Below are positions 16,600-26,567 of a stretch of DNA of 43,750 bases, in pieces. Each line of letters begins with the position of its first letter. Within the stretch, counting starts at the first letter, position 1. Where the stretch lies: the NCBI GenBank assembly GCA_023954495.1, contig JAMLIA010000022.1, forward strand, positions 1 to 43,750. The letters run 5' to 3'. Made by a program: the position numbers and the translations under genes. The notes beneath the pieces were generated by a model that had not been told where the DNA came from, made no database searches, and saw only the letters and a program-made list of their open reading frames with translations. Source of the DNA: Thermomicrobiales bacterium. GTDB lineage: Bacteria; Chloroflexota; Chloroflexia; Thermomicrobiales; CFX8.

Positions 16600-17682
16600 C
16601 TACTTCTTGGCGGTCCAGCGTGGCGGCAACGGCTCCCGCTCCAGGTAGGCGAGAATCAGATCAACGCATTGAACCAGCTCCGGCTCGGTCACCATCTCGT
16701 TCGGAGAATGGGTGTACCGGGTCGGCATCGTTAGCAGAACCGTCTCAATTCCCCGGCGGGTGAGCTCCGCGCCATCACTCCCATAGTTCTGGAAGACAGC
16801 ATGCTGCACGGGAATCCCGGCAACTTCGGCTGTTTCAGCCATCGCCATGGTCATGCGATGCGAGTAGTGACCCGATGAATCCTGATGGACGATGATCGGA
16901 CCACCGCCAAGCTTTGCCGGATGCGTCTCCGGGCGCGTCCCCGGAACGTCGCCACACAGGCCCACGTCCAGGTTGATGGCATAGGAGAAGTCGGCGATTT
17001 CCGGAATGCTCGACGCTCCCAGCAGTCCGTTCTCTTCCTGAATCGTCGAACCAACCCAGAGGGTGTGCTTCAACTTGCTGATGTCGGCACGCTCAGCCAC
17101 CGATGTTGCGATCGAGAGCGCGGCGCGATTGTCCATCGCCTTGCCCATGATCGCATCGCCCAGGCGTCGCGTTTTTGAGTTCACGACGATGCGGCTACCG
17201 GGCCGGATGCCGAGTCCCTCAACGCGCTCGCGCGTCATCAGGCCGAGATCAACAAACCAGTCGGCCCATTCAAAATGATCTTTCTGGTCAGCGGCACTGA
17301 TGACGTGGCCGCTCGCATAGACCAGCTGGCCGTCGATCGGACCCTCGTCCGACATAACCAGAACCGGCTGGTTGATTGGGACATAGCGCAGGGCAGGACG
17401 TCCGCGCGTATCCCTGCCGGCCGGCCAGACGCGGAGCAGCCCGTTGGCGGTGATCGATGTCACCATCAAGGTCAGTTCATCGCCGTGGGCCAGGATGATG
17501 ATGTTTGGTCCCTGACCGCCCACCCGCGCGATGACGTTGCCCACTCCGGTAATCTGAACATCGTCGGTGATCGTCGACCAGTGATCGGCGCACCATTCAT
17601 GGACGAGGTCTTCCTGCCCGGTTGGTCCCGGAATTTCCGTCAATGTCTTGACGAGGTCGTACATCGCCGTTGGCTTACCCAC
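16600..17682 (-). CDS. M42-family metallo-aminopeptidase
   Basis: Co-catalytic dinuclear metal aminopeptidase of 360 residues of the FrvX/TET aminopeptidase type. Visible metal-site motifs are ILAHGDE (the His and Asp of the usual HMDE, with Gly for Met), AMDNRAA, IQEENG (catalytic Glu pair) and NLDVG. A C-terminal RYTHSPNEM holds the last His. The GTG at 17682 has GAGGGG eight bases upstream. It is one of two M42 genes in this window; the other at 36793 has the classical HMDE. It converges with the ABC exporter gene. Confidence 0.88.
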   Translation of the reverse strand: MGKPTAMYDLVKTLTEIPGPTGQEDLVHEWCADHWSTITDDVQITGVGNVIARVGGQGPNIIILAHGDELTLMVTSITANGLLRVWPAGRDTRGRPALRYVPINQPVLVMSDEGPIDGQLVYASGHVISAADQKDHFEWADWFVDLGLMTRERVEGLGIRPGSRIVVNSKTRRLGDAIMGKAMDNRAALSIATSVAERADISKLKHTLWVGSTIQEENGLLGASSIPEIADFSYAINLDVGLCGDVPGTRPETHPAKLGGGPIIVHQDSSGHYSHRMTMAMAETAEVAGIPVQHAVFQNYGSDGAELTRRGIETVLLTMPTRYTHSPNEMVTEPELVQCVDLILAYLEREPLPPRWTAKK

Positions 17683-18673: not shown

Positions 18674-20359
18674 CTACCGGACCGCAGCGACGAGCAGAAC
18701 GACCGACATCAACGCACCGAACTGCAGATGCAAGCCTGCCGTCTTGCGTAATGCGGTATTGAGCGTGCCGACGTCCTGCCGGTGCATGACGATGCGCACA
18801 AGCTCGATTGCGCGCGGGATGGTGAGAAACACGATCAGGATACCGGCCGGCAGCAGACCGCCGAGGGCGACGAGGGCGACAGCGATGTAGGAACCGACGA
18901 GGAGCGCGACATATTCGCGTCGCGCCCAGCGGTAGCCGATGTACGTCGCTAGCGTCCGCTTGCCGGCGTCGGTGTCGTCGCGAATGTCGCGGATGTTATT
19001 AGCCTGCAGGATGGCCGTCACGAGCAATCCGACCGGGATCGACAGCGCGACCGCCTCCCAGGAAATGGACTGCGCCTGCACATAATACGCACCAACGACC
19101 AGCACTGGACCCATGAAGATGAAGACGGTCGCCTCGCCAAGCGCGACATATCCCAGAGGCTTGGGGCCGCCGGTGTAGAGGTACGCGGCCAGAAGGCTGG
19201 GAATCGCAAACAGCAGGACCGGCCATCCGACTCGGGCGACGATGAGGAGCCCGATGATGGTTGCGATGGCAAAGAGCGCCAGACCGAACCACAGGATAGT
19301 TTTTGGGCTTATGAGGCCGCGCTGGATGAAGCCGCCGTTGCCGCGTGAGATCGGCTTGTCTGCGCCGTTGCGGAAGTCGTAATAGTCGTTTACGAGGTTG
19401 CTGCCTGCGTGAACGAGCAGCGAGGCCAGAATGACCATCACGAACAGGCTCAGCGAGAATGCGCCGTCGATCGAGGCGAGGAGCGTGCCGAGCAACGCCG
19501 GGATGATTGAGGCGGTGAAGGAGAAGGGCCGCGTCGCCATGAACCAGTTGCGGACAGCCTGCGGCACCGGAATGCTGAAGCGGCGTCGCTCGGGCGCGCG
19601 CCACGGCATCGCGACCCGTTCGACTTCGTCCATGACGAGATTCAGTAGCCAGCCGAGCATGCCAGTGACGATCAGTCCAACATACATCTTCTCGATCGCG
19701 AACGTCTGATACGAGTTCCAGATCAGGTAGCCGATGCCATTCTTCGCGGCGAGGAACTCGGTGCCGACGATCACCAGCAACGAGAACCCGAGCGCGAGGC
19801 GCAGACCGGAGAAGATCCCCGGCAGTGCTGCAGGAACCGCGACCGTGCGAATACGCTGCAACACACTCGCGCCCGCGTCGCGTGCGACATCGAAGTACCC
19901 CTGTTCGATCTCCAGGACTGCGCTCATTGTCGACAGCACGACCATGAACAGGACGCTGACAGCAACCATCGCGACCTTCGAAGTCTCGCCGATGCCGAAG
20001 ATGATGATGACGAGCGGCAGAATGGCGATCTTTGGAACTGCGAAGAACGCTGCTGCGATCGGTGACACGACAGCACGCACCGGCCACCACAACCCCATCA
20101 GCACACCGATCAAAACTCCGGGCACGGCGGCGATGACGAACCCGGCCGCGACCCGTAGCATGCTGATCCGCAGATCGTCCCACAGCTGCCCGGACGAAAT
20201 CAGCTTTCGTGCTGTCGTTTCGAGCGATGTCGGCGGCGGGAAGAAGAGCGGGTTGATCGTTTGTGTTCGGGCCAGGATTTCCCACGTCACAAGCACGACA
20301 ACCGGCCCGAGCAGGGCCAGGATGAATCCCAGCCAGCGACGGCTCTCAGCGCCTCTCAT
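18674..20359 (-). CDS. ABC importer permease fused to a MenA/UbiA-type prenyltransferase
   Basis: Single uninterrupted reading frame of 561 residues with two complete membrane domains. Residues 1-255 are a NitT/TauT/SsuC-type permease with the cytosolic EAA loop at about 159-190 (VARDAGASVL...PAALPGIFSGLRLA). Residues about 268-561 are a UbiA-superfamily prenyltransferase: the first aspartate motif NDYYD is at 324-328 and the second, DIRDDTDAGKRT, at 458-469, both facing the cytoplasm in this family. The pattern matches MenA (1,4-dihydroxy-2-naphthoate prenyltransferase), and each half has its normal full length. Met274 begins the second domain but has no ribosome site before it. The start overlaps the stop of the ATPase gene (ATGA). 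Known: each family separately. Inferred: import of a prenyl acceptor coupled to its prenylation. Confidence 0.9.
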   Translation of the reverse strand: MRGAESRRWLGFILALLGPVVVLVTWEILARTQTINPLFFPPPTSLETTARKLISSGQLWDDLRISMLRVAAGFVIAAVPGVLIGVLMGLWWPVRAVVSPIAAAFFAVPKIAILPLVIIIFGIGETSKVAMVAVSVLFMVVLSTMSAVLEIEQGYFDVARDAGASVLQRIRTVAVPAALPGIFSGLRLALGFSLLVIVGTEFLAAKNGIGYLIWNSYQTFAIEKMYVGLIVTGMLGWLLNLVMDEVERVAMPWRAPERRRFSIPVPQAVRNWFMATRPFSFTASIIPALLGTLLASIDGAFSLSLFVMVILASLLVHAGSNLVNDYYDFRNGADKPISRGNGGFIQRGLISPKTILWFGLALFAIATIIGLLIVARVGWPVLLFAIPSLLAAYLYTGGPKPLGYVALGEATVFIFMGPVLVVGAYYVQAQSISWEAVALSIPVGLLVTAILQANNIRDIRDDTDAGKRTLATYIGYRWARREYVALLVGSYIAVALVALGGLLPAGILIVFLTIPRAIELVRIVMHRQDVGTLNTALRKTAGLHLQFGALMSVVLLVAAVR

Positions 20360-21159
20360 GACGCCACCGCCGTCGGTGGCGCGGCAGATTCATCGCGCAG
20401 GAGCGACCAGATGTGCAGAAATAGCGTTGCGAACGTCGGGTCGGAGCGCACGGTCTCGATCGAGCGTGGTCGGGCGAACGGAACATCGATGTCCGCCTTG
20501 ATCGTGCCGGGGCGCGAGCTCAGGACAATGATGCGGTCCGCCAGAATCATCGCTTCGTCGATTGAGTGCGTCACGAACATCACCGTCTTGCCGCTCTCCT
20601 CCCAGATGCGAAGGAGCTCGGATTGCAGGATCAGGCGTGTCTGCTCATCCAGTGCGCCGAACGGCTCGTCCATAAGCAACAGCTCGGGATCAACAGCGAA
20701 CGCCCGGACGATTGCGACGCGCTGCCGCATGCCTTCTGAGAGCTGCGAGGGATAGGCATACAGAAACTCGCCGAGCCCGACCTGACGGAGTAACCGCTCT
20801 GCAATCGCTTCGCGCTCCTCGCGCGAAACGCCGCGCATCGCCAGGCCGTAGGCGGCGTTGTCGAGTACGGTCATCCACGGGAAGACGGAACGGCCCTGGA
20901 AGACCATCGCTCTCAGCGGCTTGTCATCCGAGTTGCGCTGAATCGCGATGCTGCCAGCGGTCGGCGAAACCAAACCGGACACAGCTCTGAGTAGCGTGCT
21001 CTTCCCGCAGCCGGACGGGCCAACGATTGCGCAGAACTGACTCTCCGGAATCGCCAGCGAGACGTTGTCAATCGCGGTGACCACCGAGCGCGCGAGTGGA
21101 AAGGTCACCTCCAGACTGCTGATATTGACTTTGTGGCTCGCGCTATCCGGCGAGTACAT
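20356..21159 (-). CDS. ABC importer ATPase, NitT/TauT (SsuB) type
   Basis: ATPase subunit of 267 residues. Walker A GPSGCGKST, Walker B LLLMDEPFGALD and the switch His in VTHSIDEA are intact. The signature reads LSEGM rather than LSGGM, a substitution at the third position. It is the middle gene of a three-gene unit: the binding lipoprotein ends 14 bases upstream and the fused permease starts inside its stop codon (ATGA). GGAGGGA precedes the ATG. The family imports nitrate, sulfonates, taurine, thiamine pyrimidines or flavins. The permease fusion next door suggests another substrate here, by inference. Confidence 0.93.
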   Translation of the reverse strand: MYSPDSASHKVNISSLEVTFPLARSVVTAIDNVSLAIPESQFCAIVGPSGCGKSTLLRAVSGLVSPTAGSIAIQRNSDDKPLRAMVFQGRSVFPWMTVLDNAAYGLAMRGVSREEREAIAERLLRQVGLGEFLYAYPSQLSEGMRQRVAIVRAFAVDPELLLMDEPFGALDEQTRLILQSELLRIWEESGKTVMFVTHSIDEAMILADRIIVLSSRPGTIKADIDVPFARPRSIETVRSDPTFATLFLHIWSLLRDESAAPPTAVAS

Positions 21160-21173
21160 CGTCCCTCCGGTGG

Positions 21174-22274
21174 TTATTGTTCAGTGGCGACGCCGATTTC
21201 CTTAACTGCATTTTCGGCAAACGAGCGGTCGATCAGCGAGTTGACATCGAGCGGTTCGTCGTATTCGAGCAGGCCGCGATCAGCGAAGAATGTCTGCAAG
21301 GTGGCGAGATCGTCTGCGTGGATGTCGCCGTTCGGTTCGCAATAGGTGCGCGACGCCTCGCGAATCAGGTCCGGCGGCACATTCGTATGGGCTTCCAGGA
21401 TCTCCAGGTTCTCGTCGCTGTCCCAGTCGTCACCCCACAGATCGCGGCAGCCGCGCAGCATGCCGGCCATGAAGCCGGTCACCAGGTCGGGAGAATCAGC
21501 GGCGAAATCCGGATTGACCCACACGAATGTCGGCTGGAAGTTCTCCGGGAAATTCGCGTCGAGGCGAACGATCAACCCCTGCTGCTCGGCTTGCGTAGCG
21601 ATCGGCTCACCGAGCATCGCGCCATCGAGCGCGCCGGACGCCAGCGCCGCCGGCACGTCCGGGAATGGGAGCGTCTGGAGATCGACATCGCCGATAGTCA
21701 ATCCATCTGTTTCCAATGCGGCGTTGAGCCAGTACTCAGTCGCGCCGCGCGCATTCACCGAAACCTTCTTGCCCTCCAGGTCACCCGGTGTGGTCAACTC
21801 GCCGCTGTCGTAGCGTTCCTTGGAGACGACGAGCGGCGTCGCTGCCTCACCGCGCTCGAAGTGCAGCGGCGAGATGAGTTTTAGATCGATGCCGCGCGCT
21901 ACGGCGTTGAAGAAAGCTGGCCCGGTCCCACCGATGCCGATGTCAAAGTCGCCGTTGGCAGTCAGGACGACCATGTCAGATCCACCGGCAAGTGGCTCCA
22001 GGTTGACATCGAGGCCGTATTCCTCGAAGTAGCCCTTGTCGTGCGCGAGAGCGACCGGCGCGTAGATCAGCACCGGGATGAATCCGACTGTCACGGGAGT
22101 CAGTTCGGCGGGTGTCGATGTGTCGGCAGTCGCGTCGGTAGAGGAAGCAGTCGTCGCGGTCGAATCCGCTACTGGCGTCGATGTAGGATCCGAATCACCG
22201 CCGCACGCAGCGACCAGCATTCCCAGCATCACCAGAATCGTGAGCATACCAGCAGCACGGGTTCGCGTTCTCAT
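21174..22274 (-). CDS. ABC importer substrate-binding lipoprotein (NMT1/ThiY-like)
   Basis: Binding protein of about 366 residues anchored outside the membrane. A signal peptide ends in the lipobox VAAC with Cys24, followed by a Ser/Thr/Ala-rich linker. The mature part begins VTVGFIPVLIYAPVALAHDKGYF, the standard opening of NMT1/SsuA-like proteins; the motif ANGDFDIGIGG and the segment DVPAALASGALDGAMLGEP are also typical. The start at 22274 is the ATG just before the signal peptide; the longer open frame to 22631 would overlap the divergent ferredoxin gene. GAAGGGA lies 12 bases upstream, a little far. First gene of the operon with the ATPase and the permease-prenyltransferase fusion. Ligand unknown. 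Confidence 0.9.
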   Translation of the reverse strand: MRTRTRAAGMLTILVMLGMLVAACGGDSDPTSTPVADSTATTASSTDATADTSTPAELTPVTVGFIPVLIYAPVALAHDKGYFEEYGLDVNLEPLAGGSDMVVLTANGDFDIGIGGTGPAFFNAVARGIDLKLISPLHFERGEAATPLVVSKERYDSGELTTPGDLEGKKVSVNARGATEYWLNAALETDGLTIGDVDLQTLPFPDVPAALASGALDGAMLGEPIATQAEQQGLIVRLDANFPENFQPTFVWVNPDFAADSPDLVTGFMAGMLRGCRDLWGDDWDSDENLEILEAHTNVPPDLIREASRTYCEPNGDIHADDLATLQTFFADRGLLEYDEPLDVNSLIDRSFAENAVKEIGVATEQ

Positions 22275-22409: not shown

Positions 22410-22455
22410 CGGACTGTTCCGGATTGCTGCTTGCTCGAACGGAGAAGGTCCCGCT

Positions 22456-22665
22456 ATGCGAGTGCGTATAGATCGCGACAAGTGTGTGGGTGCAGAGAAC
22501 TGCGTCGTAACTGCTCCGTCGATCTTCGCGCTGGACGCGGACGGCAAGGCGCGCCTGCTAGAGATTCGCGAAATGAGTGCTGACCTCGTCTGGCTGGCGG
22601 CCGAATTGTGTCCGACTGAAGCGATCATCATTGAGGCCGATGACGGCGAGCAGCTGTATCCATGA
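22456..22665 (+). CDS. Small ferredoxin, [3Fe-4S] type
   Basis: Cytosolic electron carrier of 69 residues. Cluster ligands are Cys10 and Cys16 (spacing CVGAENC, with Ala where a 4Fe ferredoxin has its second Cys) and a third Cys in the late CPTEAI motif. This three-cysteine pattern is that of actinobacterial P450-associated [3Fe-4S] ferredoxins. GGAGAAGG precedes the ATG. Its stop codon overlaps the start of the large LuxR-type regulator (ATGA), so the two are translationally coupled. No P450 lies in the window; the FNR at 1346 is a possible reductase. Confidence 0.9.
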   Translation: MRVRIDRDKCVGAENCVVTAPSIFALDADGKARLLEIREMSADLVWLAAELCPTEAIIIEADDGEQLYP

Positions 22666-25600
22666 CAGTGCCAGCGACAACTCCGCAGTTACCGGGCCGT
22701 GAGCGCGAGCTAGCTGATGCAGTAGCCGTCCTTGGTGCATCGGCTGCTGGTCAGTTGCGCGTCATGGTACTGACCGGCGAGCCGGGCATCGGCAAGTCGC
22801 GGCTACTGGATGCTATCGAGACGCTGGCCGTTGCGCGGGGCTTTCAGACAGTGCGGACTGTCTGCGACGAAGAGTCGATGCCGGTTGCATTTGCTCCGTT
22901 GCAACAGGTAGTCGCCGAGCTTGGGCAATCGGCGGGTCTCGAAGAGCACTCGGAATCGCTTGCTGAGCATCTGCGCCGGTTGCCGCGCGAGGCGACCGAG
23001 CCGGAGCTGCGCCTGGCTGCCACCGATTACATCGCGCGGGTGATTCGAGCACGCAGTGCGGGTCAGCCGGTTGCGATCCTGATCGATGACGTGCAGTGGC
23101 TTGACGAGTCGAGCGCCTCGGTGTTGCGGCGCTTGATCCGAACCGTTCGTTATGTGCCTGTGACGCTCGTTGTCGCCTACCGCGGTGATGACCCGCGGGT
23201 GACCGGTGCCGGCGATCGCTTCATCAGTCAGGTTTCGTCCGACCCGGTGTGTCGGTTGGTTCCGTTACGGAGACTACCCGATGACGCGACGCGCTCAATC
23301 GTCGCGACGCACCTCGGGACGTCGTCTGACGAGGTGGCCGCGCTGAGCGACGAGATTCAGCGACAGTCCGAAGGTGTGCCGCTCTACGTCGTAGAGCTGA
23401 TAAGCCATTTGCAGCGCTCCGACCTGCTGACGCGCAGGAATGGGCAGTGGCATGCCGACGCAGCGCAGATTGAAGGCATGCCCCTAAACATTCGAGCCCT
23501 GCTGGATCAACGGTTGGACCGTCTGGGCGACACACACCGCGATGTGCTTGAGGTTGCGGCAGTGCTCGGGTCAGACATCGAAGACGGAACACTGAGAGCG
23601 GTTGTCGATCTCTGCGCGCCGCATCTGGCGGAACACATCGACGACGCGCTCGCTCGCAGCGCAGAGCTGGGGCTTATTCTTGAAGATACGCGCGCAGACT
23701 CGACCGCAAGCCGATTTGGCCATCAGCTGTATCGGGATCGCCTGTACGCCGGTACCGGGCACGGCACGCGACGATCGATCCACGATGCCGCCGCGACCGT
23801 CCTTGAAGCGACAACTGCGAATGGAGAACAGGTAGAGCGCGTCGCGTATCACGCGATTCGAGGTCGTGACCCACTTGTCGGCGTTCACGCGGCTCGTCGC
23901 GCTGCACGGGCCGCCGCCGATATCCACGCCTGGGAAGATGCCGTGCAATGGATTGACGTTGCGATTGACTTGCTCAGCAGCATGCCGCCGGGCGACCCAA
24001 TCGAACGTCCAGCACGAGCTGATCAGCAGATAGCGCTGGCGATTGAACGTGACACCTACGTGGCCGTCGTTGGCGATCCCACCGCGCGGCAGTCGAGCGC
24101 CGAGATTCTGGAACGCCTGGCGATCGAAGCGGCAACAGCATCCAGACGTTCCGAGCTGCTCGTGCGTGCCACACGTGGAATGGTCGCTGGAGGTGCGCTC
24201 GACCGAGCGAAGAAGCTCGCCGCACAGCTCGCAGGTCTGGCCGACGACGAGGAGATCGATGAGACGGCGCAGCTCTGGATTGCTGTTGGCGAAGCGGCTA
24301 TCGGCAGGTCGATTGGAGAACCAGCGCCGGTGCGGTGCGCCGTTGATGGTCTGCAGCGAGCACGCAGTGCGTTTCATCGCGCCCTGTTTCTTGTTCCCGA
24401 GACGCCGACCAGCATCAGAGGATCGCTGCTTCAAGAGCTTGGTGTCGTGGAGGCGGCGCTGGCTGATCGTGGATTGCTGGAGCGACGTGTCGCGCACGAG
24501 AGGCTGCGGGCAGCGCTGGATGTTTACCGCCTGGCGAAAGACCGACGCGGCGAGACAACGATCCTGATCGCGCTCGCCTATCGCCGGAACATCGAAGCTG
24601 ACCGCCCAACTAGTGGCAACTCAGACCGCTTCGTCTCATTTCTCGAAGAGATCCGCCGGTTGCGTGCTGCCGAGCACCGGATCGTTGGTGCCACCGACCA
24701 GCCGCGTGCGGAGGCGCTCTCGCTCCTTTCGACTCAGCTCTACTGTCGAACGAAAGGCTGGTACGAGTTGGCGCTCGAACGTGGGGCACAGGCTCGCCGG
24801 TGGGCCGATGAATCACGCGATCCTCGCGTCGGCGCGATGGTCGAGATCGCGCTGTCAGAGTGCAATTGGCTGGTTGGGCGGGGTGCGCGCGCCCTCGAGC
24901 ATGCGGAGCGTGCGCTCGCTGCGCTCGATCAGCTCGCGGCTCATCCGAGCGCCGACAGCCTTTTGCACTGGCAGGCTTTGGCGGCCAGGGTCCGCGCGCA
25001 TCTCGCAATGGGCGACACTACCCGCGCGACGCACCTTGCACGGCAAGCTGCATCGGATGAAGGCAATCGTCGTGGCGCGACGACGGGCCAGGTTGAAGCG
25101 CTGCTCGTTGAAGCTCTGGAGGCCAACAGGCACATCGACGAGGCGCGGGCGCTGGCTGAGGGCGAGTTGCGCGGGGCCGTGGGCCTGTCGTCCGGCACCA
25201 TCTGGGACATCCAGCTGGACCTTGCGCTGTCTCGCATGGCGCTGGTTAGTGAGGATGGACGTTCGGCTGTCGGCCACGCCGCCGCCGCTGCGGCACGCCT
25301 GACCGAGCGCCGCACTCCGTTTGTCTGGCTGCGCCTCGCGGCCGGGACTGCCCTCGTCGCGTCACTGCTGGCAACCGGGCATGAGCGCGAGGCACGCGAT
25401 GCTGCGCGCGATCCGGCCGAGCTCGCCGCGACAGTGCTCAGCCGCATTTCCGACCCGACCCTCTGGGACGAGACGGCCAGCGCCGCACCATATCTGGCGG
25501 ATTTCCTGCGCATCATCGAGCCTCGCTGGCCCGACCTCATGCCGAAACCGATGCAAGCTACGCCGGAAATCTCGCACCCACTCACGGCGCGGGAGCTGGA

Positions 25601-25766
25601 GGTCATGCGACTCGTTGCGTCGGGACGCTCGAATCAGGAGATCGCCGACACGCTGTTCATTAGCGTCAAGACAGTGGCCCGTCATCTGACCAATGTCTAC
25701 ACAAAGATCGGCGCAGAGAGTCGGACACAGGCGGCGGCATGGGCGTATCGGAATCGCATCGTCTGA
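22662..25766 (+). CDS. Large ATP-binding LuxR-family regulator (LAL type)
   Basis: Transcription regulator of 1034 residues. The N-terminal AAA/STAND ATPase has Walker A GEPGIGKS (39-46) and Walker B VAILIDDVQWLD (about 138-149). A long Ala-rich helical middle region (about 400-950) resembles TPR-like repeats. The C-terminal LuxR helix-turn-helix begins LTARELEVMRLVASGRSNQEIA and ends at the last residues (about 970-1034). This is the LAL/MalT architecture, in which ligand and ATP binding allow DNA binding. It is coupled by a four-base overlap to the ferredoxin and followed 15 bases later by the DUF3891 gene. The inducer is unknown. Confidence 0.92.
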   Translation: MTVPATTPQLPGRERELADAVAVLGASAAGQLRVMVLTGEPGIGKSRLLDAIETLAVARGFQTVRTVCDEESMPVAFAPLQQVVAELGQSAGLEEHSESLAEHLRRLPREATEPELRLAATDYIARVIRARSAGQPVAILIDDVQWLDESSASVLRRLIRTVRYVPVTLVVAYRGDDPRVTGAGDRFISQVSSDPVCRLVPLRRLPDDATRSIVATHLGTSSDEVAALSDEIQRQSEGVPLYVVELISHLQRSDLLTRRNGQWHADAAQIEGMPLNIRALLDQRLDRLGDTHRDVLEVAAVLGSDIEDGTLRAVVDLCAPHLAEHIDDALARSAELGLILEDTRADSTASRFGHQLYRDRLYAGTGHGTRRSIHDAAATVLEATTANGEQVERVAYHAIRGRDPLVGVHAARRAARAAADIHAWEDAVQWIDVAIDLLSSMPPGDPIERPARADQQIALAIERDTYVAVVGDPTARQSSAEILERLAIEAATASRRSELLVRATRGMVAGGALDRAKKLAAQLAGLADDEEIDETAQLWIAVGEAAIGRSIGEPAPVRCAVDGLQRARSAFHRALFLVPETPTSIRGSLLQELGVVEAALADRGLLERRVAHERLRAALDVYRLAKDRRGETTILIALAYRRNIEADRPTSGNSDRFVSFLEEIRRLRAAEHRIVGATDQPRAEALSLLSTQLYCRTKGWYELALERGAQARRWADESRDPRVGAMVEIALSECNWLVGRGARALEHAERALAALDQLAAHPSADSLLHWQALAARVRAHLAMGDTTRATHLARQAASDEGNRRGATTGQVEALLVEALEANRHIDEARALAEGELRGAVGLSSGTIWDIQLDLALSRMALVSEDGRSAVGHAAAAAARLTERRTPFVWLRLAAGTALVASLLATGHEREARDAARDPAELAATVLSRISDPTLWDETASAAPYLADFLRIIEPRWPDLMPKPMQATPEISHPLTARELEVMRLVASGRSNQEIADTLFISVKTVARHLTNVYTKIGAESRTQAAAWAYRNRIV

Positions 25767-25781
25767 CGAGGAGGGATTCAC

Positions 25782-26567
25782 ATGCTGTTACGCAAGGTCG
25801 ACACCGGCTGGATAGCGATCACGCAGCCCGCTCATGCGCGTCTTTCGGCGCAGATCGCTGCGGCTTGGGACGCCGAGTGGGCCGCCCCGGTCACGCCGCG
25901 AGATGGCGTCGTCGCCGGAACACTTCTCCACGACATCGGCTGGCTCGACTGGGAATCATCCCCGACACTGAACCCGGAGACTGGGCTGCCGCACACGTTC
26001 CTGCAATTGTCTGTTACCGTGCATATCGGGATGTGGCGCACCGCTGCGCAGCGCGCGCTCGCGTTCGGTCGATATCCGGCGCTGCTCACGTCGATGCACG
26101 GCACGCGACTCTACGGGTCGCGCGATCTGAGTTCTCTGCCCGAGGGCGACGCGGCGTTAATTCGCGAGTTCCTGGCTGACGAAGCAGCTCGGCAGGGTGC
26201 GTTGATCGATTCGCTGCGAGCCGAGCCCTCGACTGCAGCGTCGGTGGAGGCCGAGCAGTTGGCGGTCAATAGTCAGTACGTCGCGCTGTGGGATGCGATG
26301 TCGCTGGCCATCTGCGGCGGAATCCGCGATGAGCGCTCGTTCAATCAGGTTCCGTCGGACGGAGAAGCATCTTCGATCCGAGTTCTCCCGGAGAATGGGC
26401 GAGAACGTCTAAGGCTGGACCCCTGGCCGTTCCGCGATGCCGCAGTCTCATTGACGTTCGACGCACGCCACATCGGCTCCACCTTCAACGATGAGGAGCA
26501 GATGCGGCGTGCGTTGAATGACTCTGTCTGGATTCAGGAATCGGTCGAGCTTGTCCCCGGCCCCTAG
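25782..26567 (+). CDS. DUF3891 family protein
   Basis: Protein of 261 residues matching the DUF3891 pattern as I recall it: an early HARLSAQIAAAWD helix, LLHDIGWLDWE with an HD pair, and a later MHGTRLYG. The His/Asp pair resembles HD-domain hydrolases, but the family has no established function. GAGGAGGG lies well placed before the ATG, and the gene starts only 15 bases after the regulator, so it belongs to the same operon. It converges with the dUTPase gene with 13 bases between stops. Confidence 0.8.
   Translation: MLLRKVDTGWIAITQPAHARLSAQIAAAWDAEWAAPVTPRDGVVAGTLLHDIGWLDWESSPTLNPETGLPHTFLQLSVTVHIGMWRTAAQRALAFGRYPALLTSMHGTRLYGSRDLSSLPEGDAALIREFLADEAARQGALIDSLRAEPSTAASVEAEQLAVNSQYVALWDAMSLAICGGIRDERSFNQVPSDGEASSIRVLPENGRERLRLDPWPFRDAAVSLTFDARHIGSTFNDEEQMRRALNDSVWIQESVELVPGP

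Follow-up and report, generated by a model that had tools for sequence, protein, structure and literature searches.

A permease-MenA fusion in Chloroflexota as a candidate importer of menaquinone head groups

Why should a bacterium weld a menaquinone-forming prenyltransferase, MenA, onto the permease of an ATP-binding cassette (ABC) importer? The question is raised by a 43,750-nucleotide stretch from a Thermomicrobiales bacterium of the Chloroflexota (GCA_023954495.1, contig JAMLIA010000022.1, positions 1 to 43,750), hereafter the window, whose source genome, G000, is 96% complete. Its minus strand carries three closely packed genes: a substrate-binding lipoprotein (SBP) of 366 amino acids (aa) and NMT1/SsuA-like type (21174–22274; Pfam NMT1/NMT1_2), an ABC ATPase of 267 aa and taurine/nitrate type (20356–21159; Pfam ABC_tran and curated profiles), and a permease-MenA fusion of 561 aa (18674–20359; open reading frame (ORF), Pfam, NCBIfam, alignment and AF2 model). 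This tight spacing had been described in a sequence-only reading of the locus, and the ORFs and the sequence bear it out: the SBP stop codon ends at 21174 and the ATPase starts at 21159, leaving a gap of 14 bases, and the ATPase stop TGA and the fusion start ATG overlap as ATGA at 20359–20356. We conclude that the operon quite likely serves to import 1,4-dihydroxy-2-naphthoate (DHNA), or a close naphthoate, from other organisms, with import coupled to prenylation. The sequence-only reading had proposed the same coupling, which now draws support from the phyletic pattern, from a menD genome in which this type of MenA stands apart from the permease, and from repeated fusion; binding of such a ligand by the SBP is what we infer.

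The fusion is a single ORF in which Pfam recognizes BPD_transp_1 (aa 81–244, 83 bits) and UbiA (aa 285–523, 133 bits). MenA models score best among the NCBIfam profiles: TIGR00751 gives 146 bits, above its cut-off of 102, and NF004749, also a MenA model, gives 251 bits, under its cut-off of 277. The permease domain (aa 1–255; 19595–20359) has CmpB and NrtB as its nearest solved folds (Foldseek TMt 0.84) and contains an EAA-type coupling loop (19811–19894) with G163, A164, P176, P180 and I182 conserved (alignment A1). With SBP, permease and ATPase all present and this loop conserved, the claim that the genes form one complete importer stands. For the MenA (UbiA-family) domain (aa 267–561; 18677–19561; Pfam, NCBIfam and Foldseek), the nearest solved structure is UBIAD1. 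Both Asp-rich catalytic motifs of MenA (NDYYD and NNIRDxxxDxxxGKRTLA) are near-invariant in alignment A1: N321, N324, Y326 and D328 are invariant in the first, NLVNDYYD (aa 321–328; 19376–19399), as are N454, N455, R457, D458, D462 and K467 to A471 in the second, NNIRDIRDDTDAGKRTLA (aa 454–471; 18947–19000). Between the domains lies a short linker of low pLDDT (aa 256–266; 19562–19594) in the AF2 model (whole fusion: pLDDT 81, pTM 0.65), a prediction that supports two domains joined by a short flexible linker but not their relative pose. Permeases of this family have six helices, and this even number would bring the linker to the cytoplasmic face, where it is required. UbiA enzymes have their active site towards the cytoplasm.

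In a class-wide survey of 158 genomes, nearly all of them draft metagenome-assembled genomes (MAGs), we found the fusion intact, at 540–560 aa, in 32 genomes from 18 genera, full length in 31 and in frame with a longer linker in G099. The SBP–ATPase–fusion order, kept at most loci, recurs together with a full-length fusion in four sister-genus or family genomes (69–80% identity) and in other families at 42–47% identity, which rules out both a chance ORF and a frameshift artefact. The named carriers, Chloroflexota MAGs, include Thermomicrobiales AVDCRST_MAG87, Roseiflexaceae, Chloroflexaceae, ‘Anaerolineae’ SJ7 and SKYG67; the fusion was also found, independently, in family f35, and one copy lies on a nearly closed contig of 1.47 Mb (G442:C1). 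Nine further genomes have the same four genes as neighbours but unfused.

Which of these genomes can make the head group themselves? Neither menD nor menB nor MqnC scored above cut-off in profile searches of G000 and its four family members; in this family (f1), the fusion is present in 5/5 genomes and the pathway in 0/5. The searches covered menD and menB for DHNA synthesis and MqnC for the futalosine route. Across the survey, a trace of menD, menB or MqnC is seen in 4/32 fused genomes versus 90/126 others (Fisher P=1.2e-9), and in 4/26 versus 74/89 when only genomes at least 85% complete are counted. A family-stratified permutation expects 13.8 fused genomes with a trace where 4 are observed (P<=5e-6), and one vote per genus gives 4/18 versus 36/60 (P=0.007); these statistics remove relatedness only in part. 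We draw the argument from the fused set alone, because the genomes with adjacent genes or with the transporter only were picked for a strong permease match, and most of those matches come from genomes that have no pathway. The independent family f35 shows the pattern again: menD is missing from its three fused genomes (95–99% complete) and present in the non-fused G191, G388 and G462.

The fused genomes nevertheless appear still to need a quinone and to be able to finish one. The complex I marker NuoD is found in 28/32, including G000 (G000:C9:52187–53344, 546 bits), and MenG/UbiE in 22/32. In the mechanism that we propose, the lipoprotein SBP would bind the menaquinone head group, most likely DHNA, outside the cell; the fused permease, as a homodimer powered by the ATPase, would carry it inward; the MenA domain at the permease C-terminus would add the polyprenyl tail at once, leaving demethylmenaquinone trapped in the membrane; and MenG, encoded elsewhere, would methylate it. 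With the head group bought in, prenylated and methylated, the operon would therefore stand in for the lost de novo pathway.

The MenA tree bears on what the fused enzyme prenylates. The fused state requires five changes on this tree, at least three of them forced by well-supported branches, and the fusions of G132 and G143 fall among unfused neighbours, indicating that fusion (or splitting) has happened more than once. The fusion is the sole MenA match in 20/32 fused genomes. Genome G052, assembled in 4 contigs and 99% complete, encodes menD and menB but lacks the fusion; the one MenA that it has is a standalone 315-aa protein (L161:1803–2750), nested within the fusion clade (support 100/99) and 76% identical to the fused domain of G054. 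Since a member of the clade is here the only MenA alongside menD and menB, fusion-type MenA very probably uses DHNA. In G030, menD is present and the fusion is the only MenA, and 12 non-fused MqnC genomes have no match to the fusion's MenA family. Taken together with G052, these genomes favour DHNA over the head group of the futalosine route, which the 12 MqnC genomes speak against. Separately, two sets of candidates were set aside by eye: the UbiA of L003, considered as another quinone enzyme, has a motif resembling a DPPR/decaprenyl-phosphoribose-type synthase, and the Binatota-type MenA-like proteins (L076, L078, L079) are adjoined by CaiB-like CoA-transferase ORFs, with no ABC genes.

What the importer carries is addressed most directly by its binding protein. 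The SBP start that yields a signal peptide and a lipobox (VAA followed by Cys24; 22203–22214, assigned from the lipobox consensus) is at 22274. The transporter parts of the operon resemble taurine, nitrate and sulfonate systems, yet lie far under every curated equivalog cut-off: TauA 57 versus 304 bits, the SsuA family 83 versus 163, TauC 122 versus 342 and ntrB 103 versus 209. Sequence comparison of the operon SBPs with other SBPs brought out a signature of two parts, H138-x-E140 (21855–21863) and N174...E180-x-W182 (21729–21755). Every SBP that could be read from fused, adjacent and MenA-less operons has H138, E140, E180 and W182, together with N174, and the signature is unchanged with or without MenA next door; H138/E140/W182 occur in 0/16 SBPs of other, related operons of taurine/nitrate type and in 0/9 paralogous SBPs of men-pathway genomes. 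Far below those cut-offs and with an invariant signature of its own, the SBP falls outside the thiamine-pyrimidine and sulfonate binders, in keeping with the sequence-only reading. Its AF2 model (pLDDT 88) has SsuA, TauA and ThiY as nearest folds, with PqqT and MqnD lower in the list; as PqqT binds pyrroloquinoline quinone (PQQ), these neighbours suggest a fold able to accommodate aromatic and quinone ligands. At the G103 locus (L041:578–3814), three tandem SBPs precede the operon; the two extra copies are divergent (28% and 39–40% identical to the window SBP), and the copy at 39% identity is without N174 and E180.

Scavenging of the same kind could instead concern another head group, such as 1,4-naphthoquinone, menadione or another naphthoate or quinone. 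UBIAD1, the nearest solved structure to the MenA domain, prenylates menadione, and the PQQ binder PqqT lies in the fold neighbourhood of the SBP. However, MenG has a use only where the head group arrives non-methylated, and most fused genomes retain MenG, so menadione is disfavoured; moreover, the canonical MenA motifs are retained and the G052 relative serves as sole MenA beside menD and menB. We therefore regard another head group as unlikely.

Several observations weigh against import of DHNA as the role of the operon. G000 has a standalone MenA (G000:C14:27181–28071, NF004749 291 bits) followed by MenG (L057:6423–8071). This divergent protein forms a long branch. Where the fusions have GKRTLA in the second Asp motif, its G102 and G100 orthologs have GRRTL/GRRTF; the substrate of this standalone MenA may have drifted. 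The sequence-only reading would have counted against scavenging a second menA together with a complete pathway, along with an SBP of thiamine-pyrimidine or sulfonate type; a second menA is present, beside MenG, whereas a complete pathway is not, with menD, menB and MqnC all absent. Four fused genomes have pathway traces (menD in G030 and G031, MqnC in G005, a weak menB in G004), and DHNA may be made by some third route. In eight genomes the transporter occurs without MenA beside it. In the f35 genomes (L184–L186) and SKYG67 (L070) the fusion stands by itself, the flanks read containing neither SBP nor ATPase, and AL-N1 (G057, Chloroflexi bacterium; L152) combines a signature-type SBP, ATPase and permease with menD and has no MenA there.

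In a second alternative explanation, DHNA is made by such a third route and the transporter takes up an unrelated, taurine- or sulfonate-like nutrient, the fusion being incidental or regulatory. Families f1 and f5 both keep a second MenA beside MenG without menD, MenA is absent from some operons, and the SBP, ATPase and permease do resemble taurine/nitrate systems. But an incidental fusion sits poorly with MenA and transporter genes that are repeatedly associated and repeatedly switch between fused and unfused, with the tight inverse pattern of fusion and menD, and with a signature not found in the sulfonate/nitrate-type SBPs compared, and we consider this explanation improbable. That the fusion or operon is a product of annotation or assembly, for which the draft nature of the MAG might speak, can be dismissed, given its recurrence intact across genera, its alignment, named records in several assemblies and the nearly closed contig.

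The surroundings of the operon can be described briefly. In the window, an M42 aminopeptidase gene (16600–17682, minus strand) lies on one side; on the other, on the plus strand and divergent to the operon, are a small 4Fe-4S ferredoxin-like ORF (22452–22665) and an ORF for a 1034-aa AAA/LuxR-type regulator (22662–25766), with a DUF3891 protein gene beyond (25782–26567, plus strand). In family f5, the operon lies downstream of rseP-like and ispG-like (MEP isoprenoid pathway) genes at L139, L145 and L146, as judged by eye, and at L051 and L056 it is followed by calcineurin-like phosphoesterase and GFO/IDH oxidoreductase genes, with ThuA in L056 (Pfam); these f5 downstream genes give no clear clue to the ligand.

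How does the system compare with known ones? Its MenA domain shares with MenA (NF004749/TIGR00751, UbiA) the fold, both Asp-rich motifs and a score above the TIGR00751 cut-off; it differs in its fusion to an ABC permease, in its occurrence mostly in genomes without DHNA synthesis and in falling below the NF004749 cut-off. The SBP, ATPase and permease all belong to the superfamily of TauABC, SsuABC, NrtABCD and CmpABCD, whereas the scores under curated cut-offs, the SBP signature and the enzyme domain on the permease set them apart. PqqT shares the fold neighbourhood of the SBP and has a quinone ligand, but is only about 18% identical and is not tied to a prenyltransferase here. UBIAD1 salvages a head group through prenylation; this closest solved structure to the MenA domain is eukaryotic and has no transporter attached.

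Physiologically, the closest parallel is offered by DHNA-dependent oral and gut bacteria and L. plantarum, which lost the head-group pathway, keep the finishing enzymes and use exogenous DHNA. Bacteria of this kind, with menA and ubiE/menG only, include Porphyromonas pasteri (PMC9704088), gut isolates (PMC5738691) and L. plantarum (PMC10746273), and DHNA dependence with the early pathway lost and menA/ubiE kept is an established trait among oral and gut bacteria (PMC9704088; PMC5738691). PMC5738691 raises the possibility that transport of DHNA or menaquinone accounts for quinone specificity, and PMC10746273 expects uptake pathways yet to be identified. Neither a DHNA ABC importer nor a UbiA-permease fusion is described in the literature searched, which covers subscription papers and preprints only thinly.

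Since DHNA or quinone transport is named as unidentified in papers on DHNA-dependent bacteria (PMC5738691; PMC10746273), the operon provides a concrete, expressible candidate for a DHNA transporter, with an SBP signature that can be used to find others, and illustrates how an importer can be joined to the very enzyme that would trap its cargo. Probably, these mostly uncultured Chloroflexota without head-group genes take up a head group made by their neighbours and complete the quinone on their own. More tentatively, the operon might represent a first DHNA importer, in which direct passing from permease to MenA makes prenylation vectorial, and the fused lineages without menD might be obligate scavengers, which would be part of the reason why they are uncultured; for their cultivation, the prediction is addition of DHNA.
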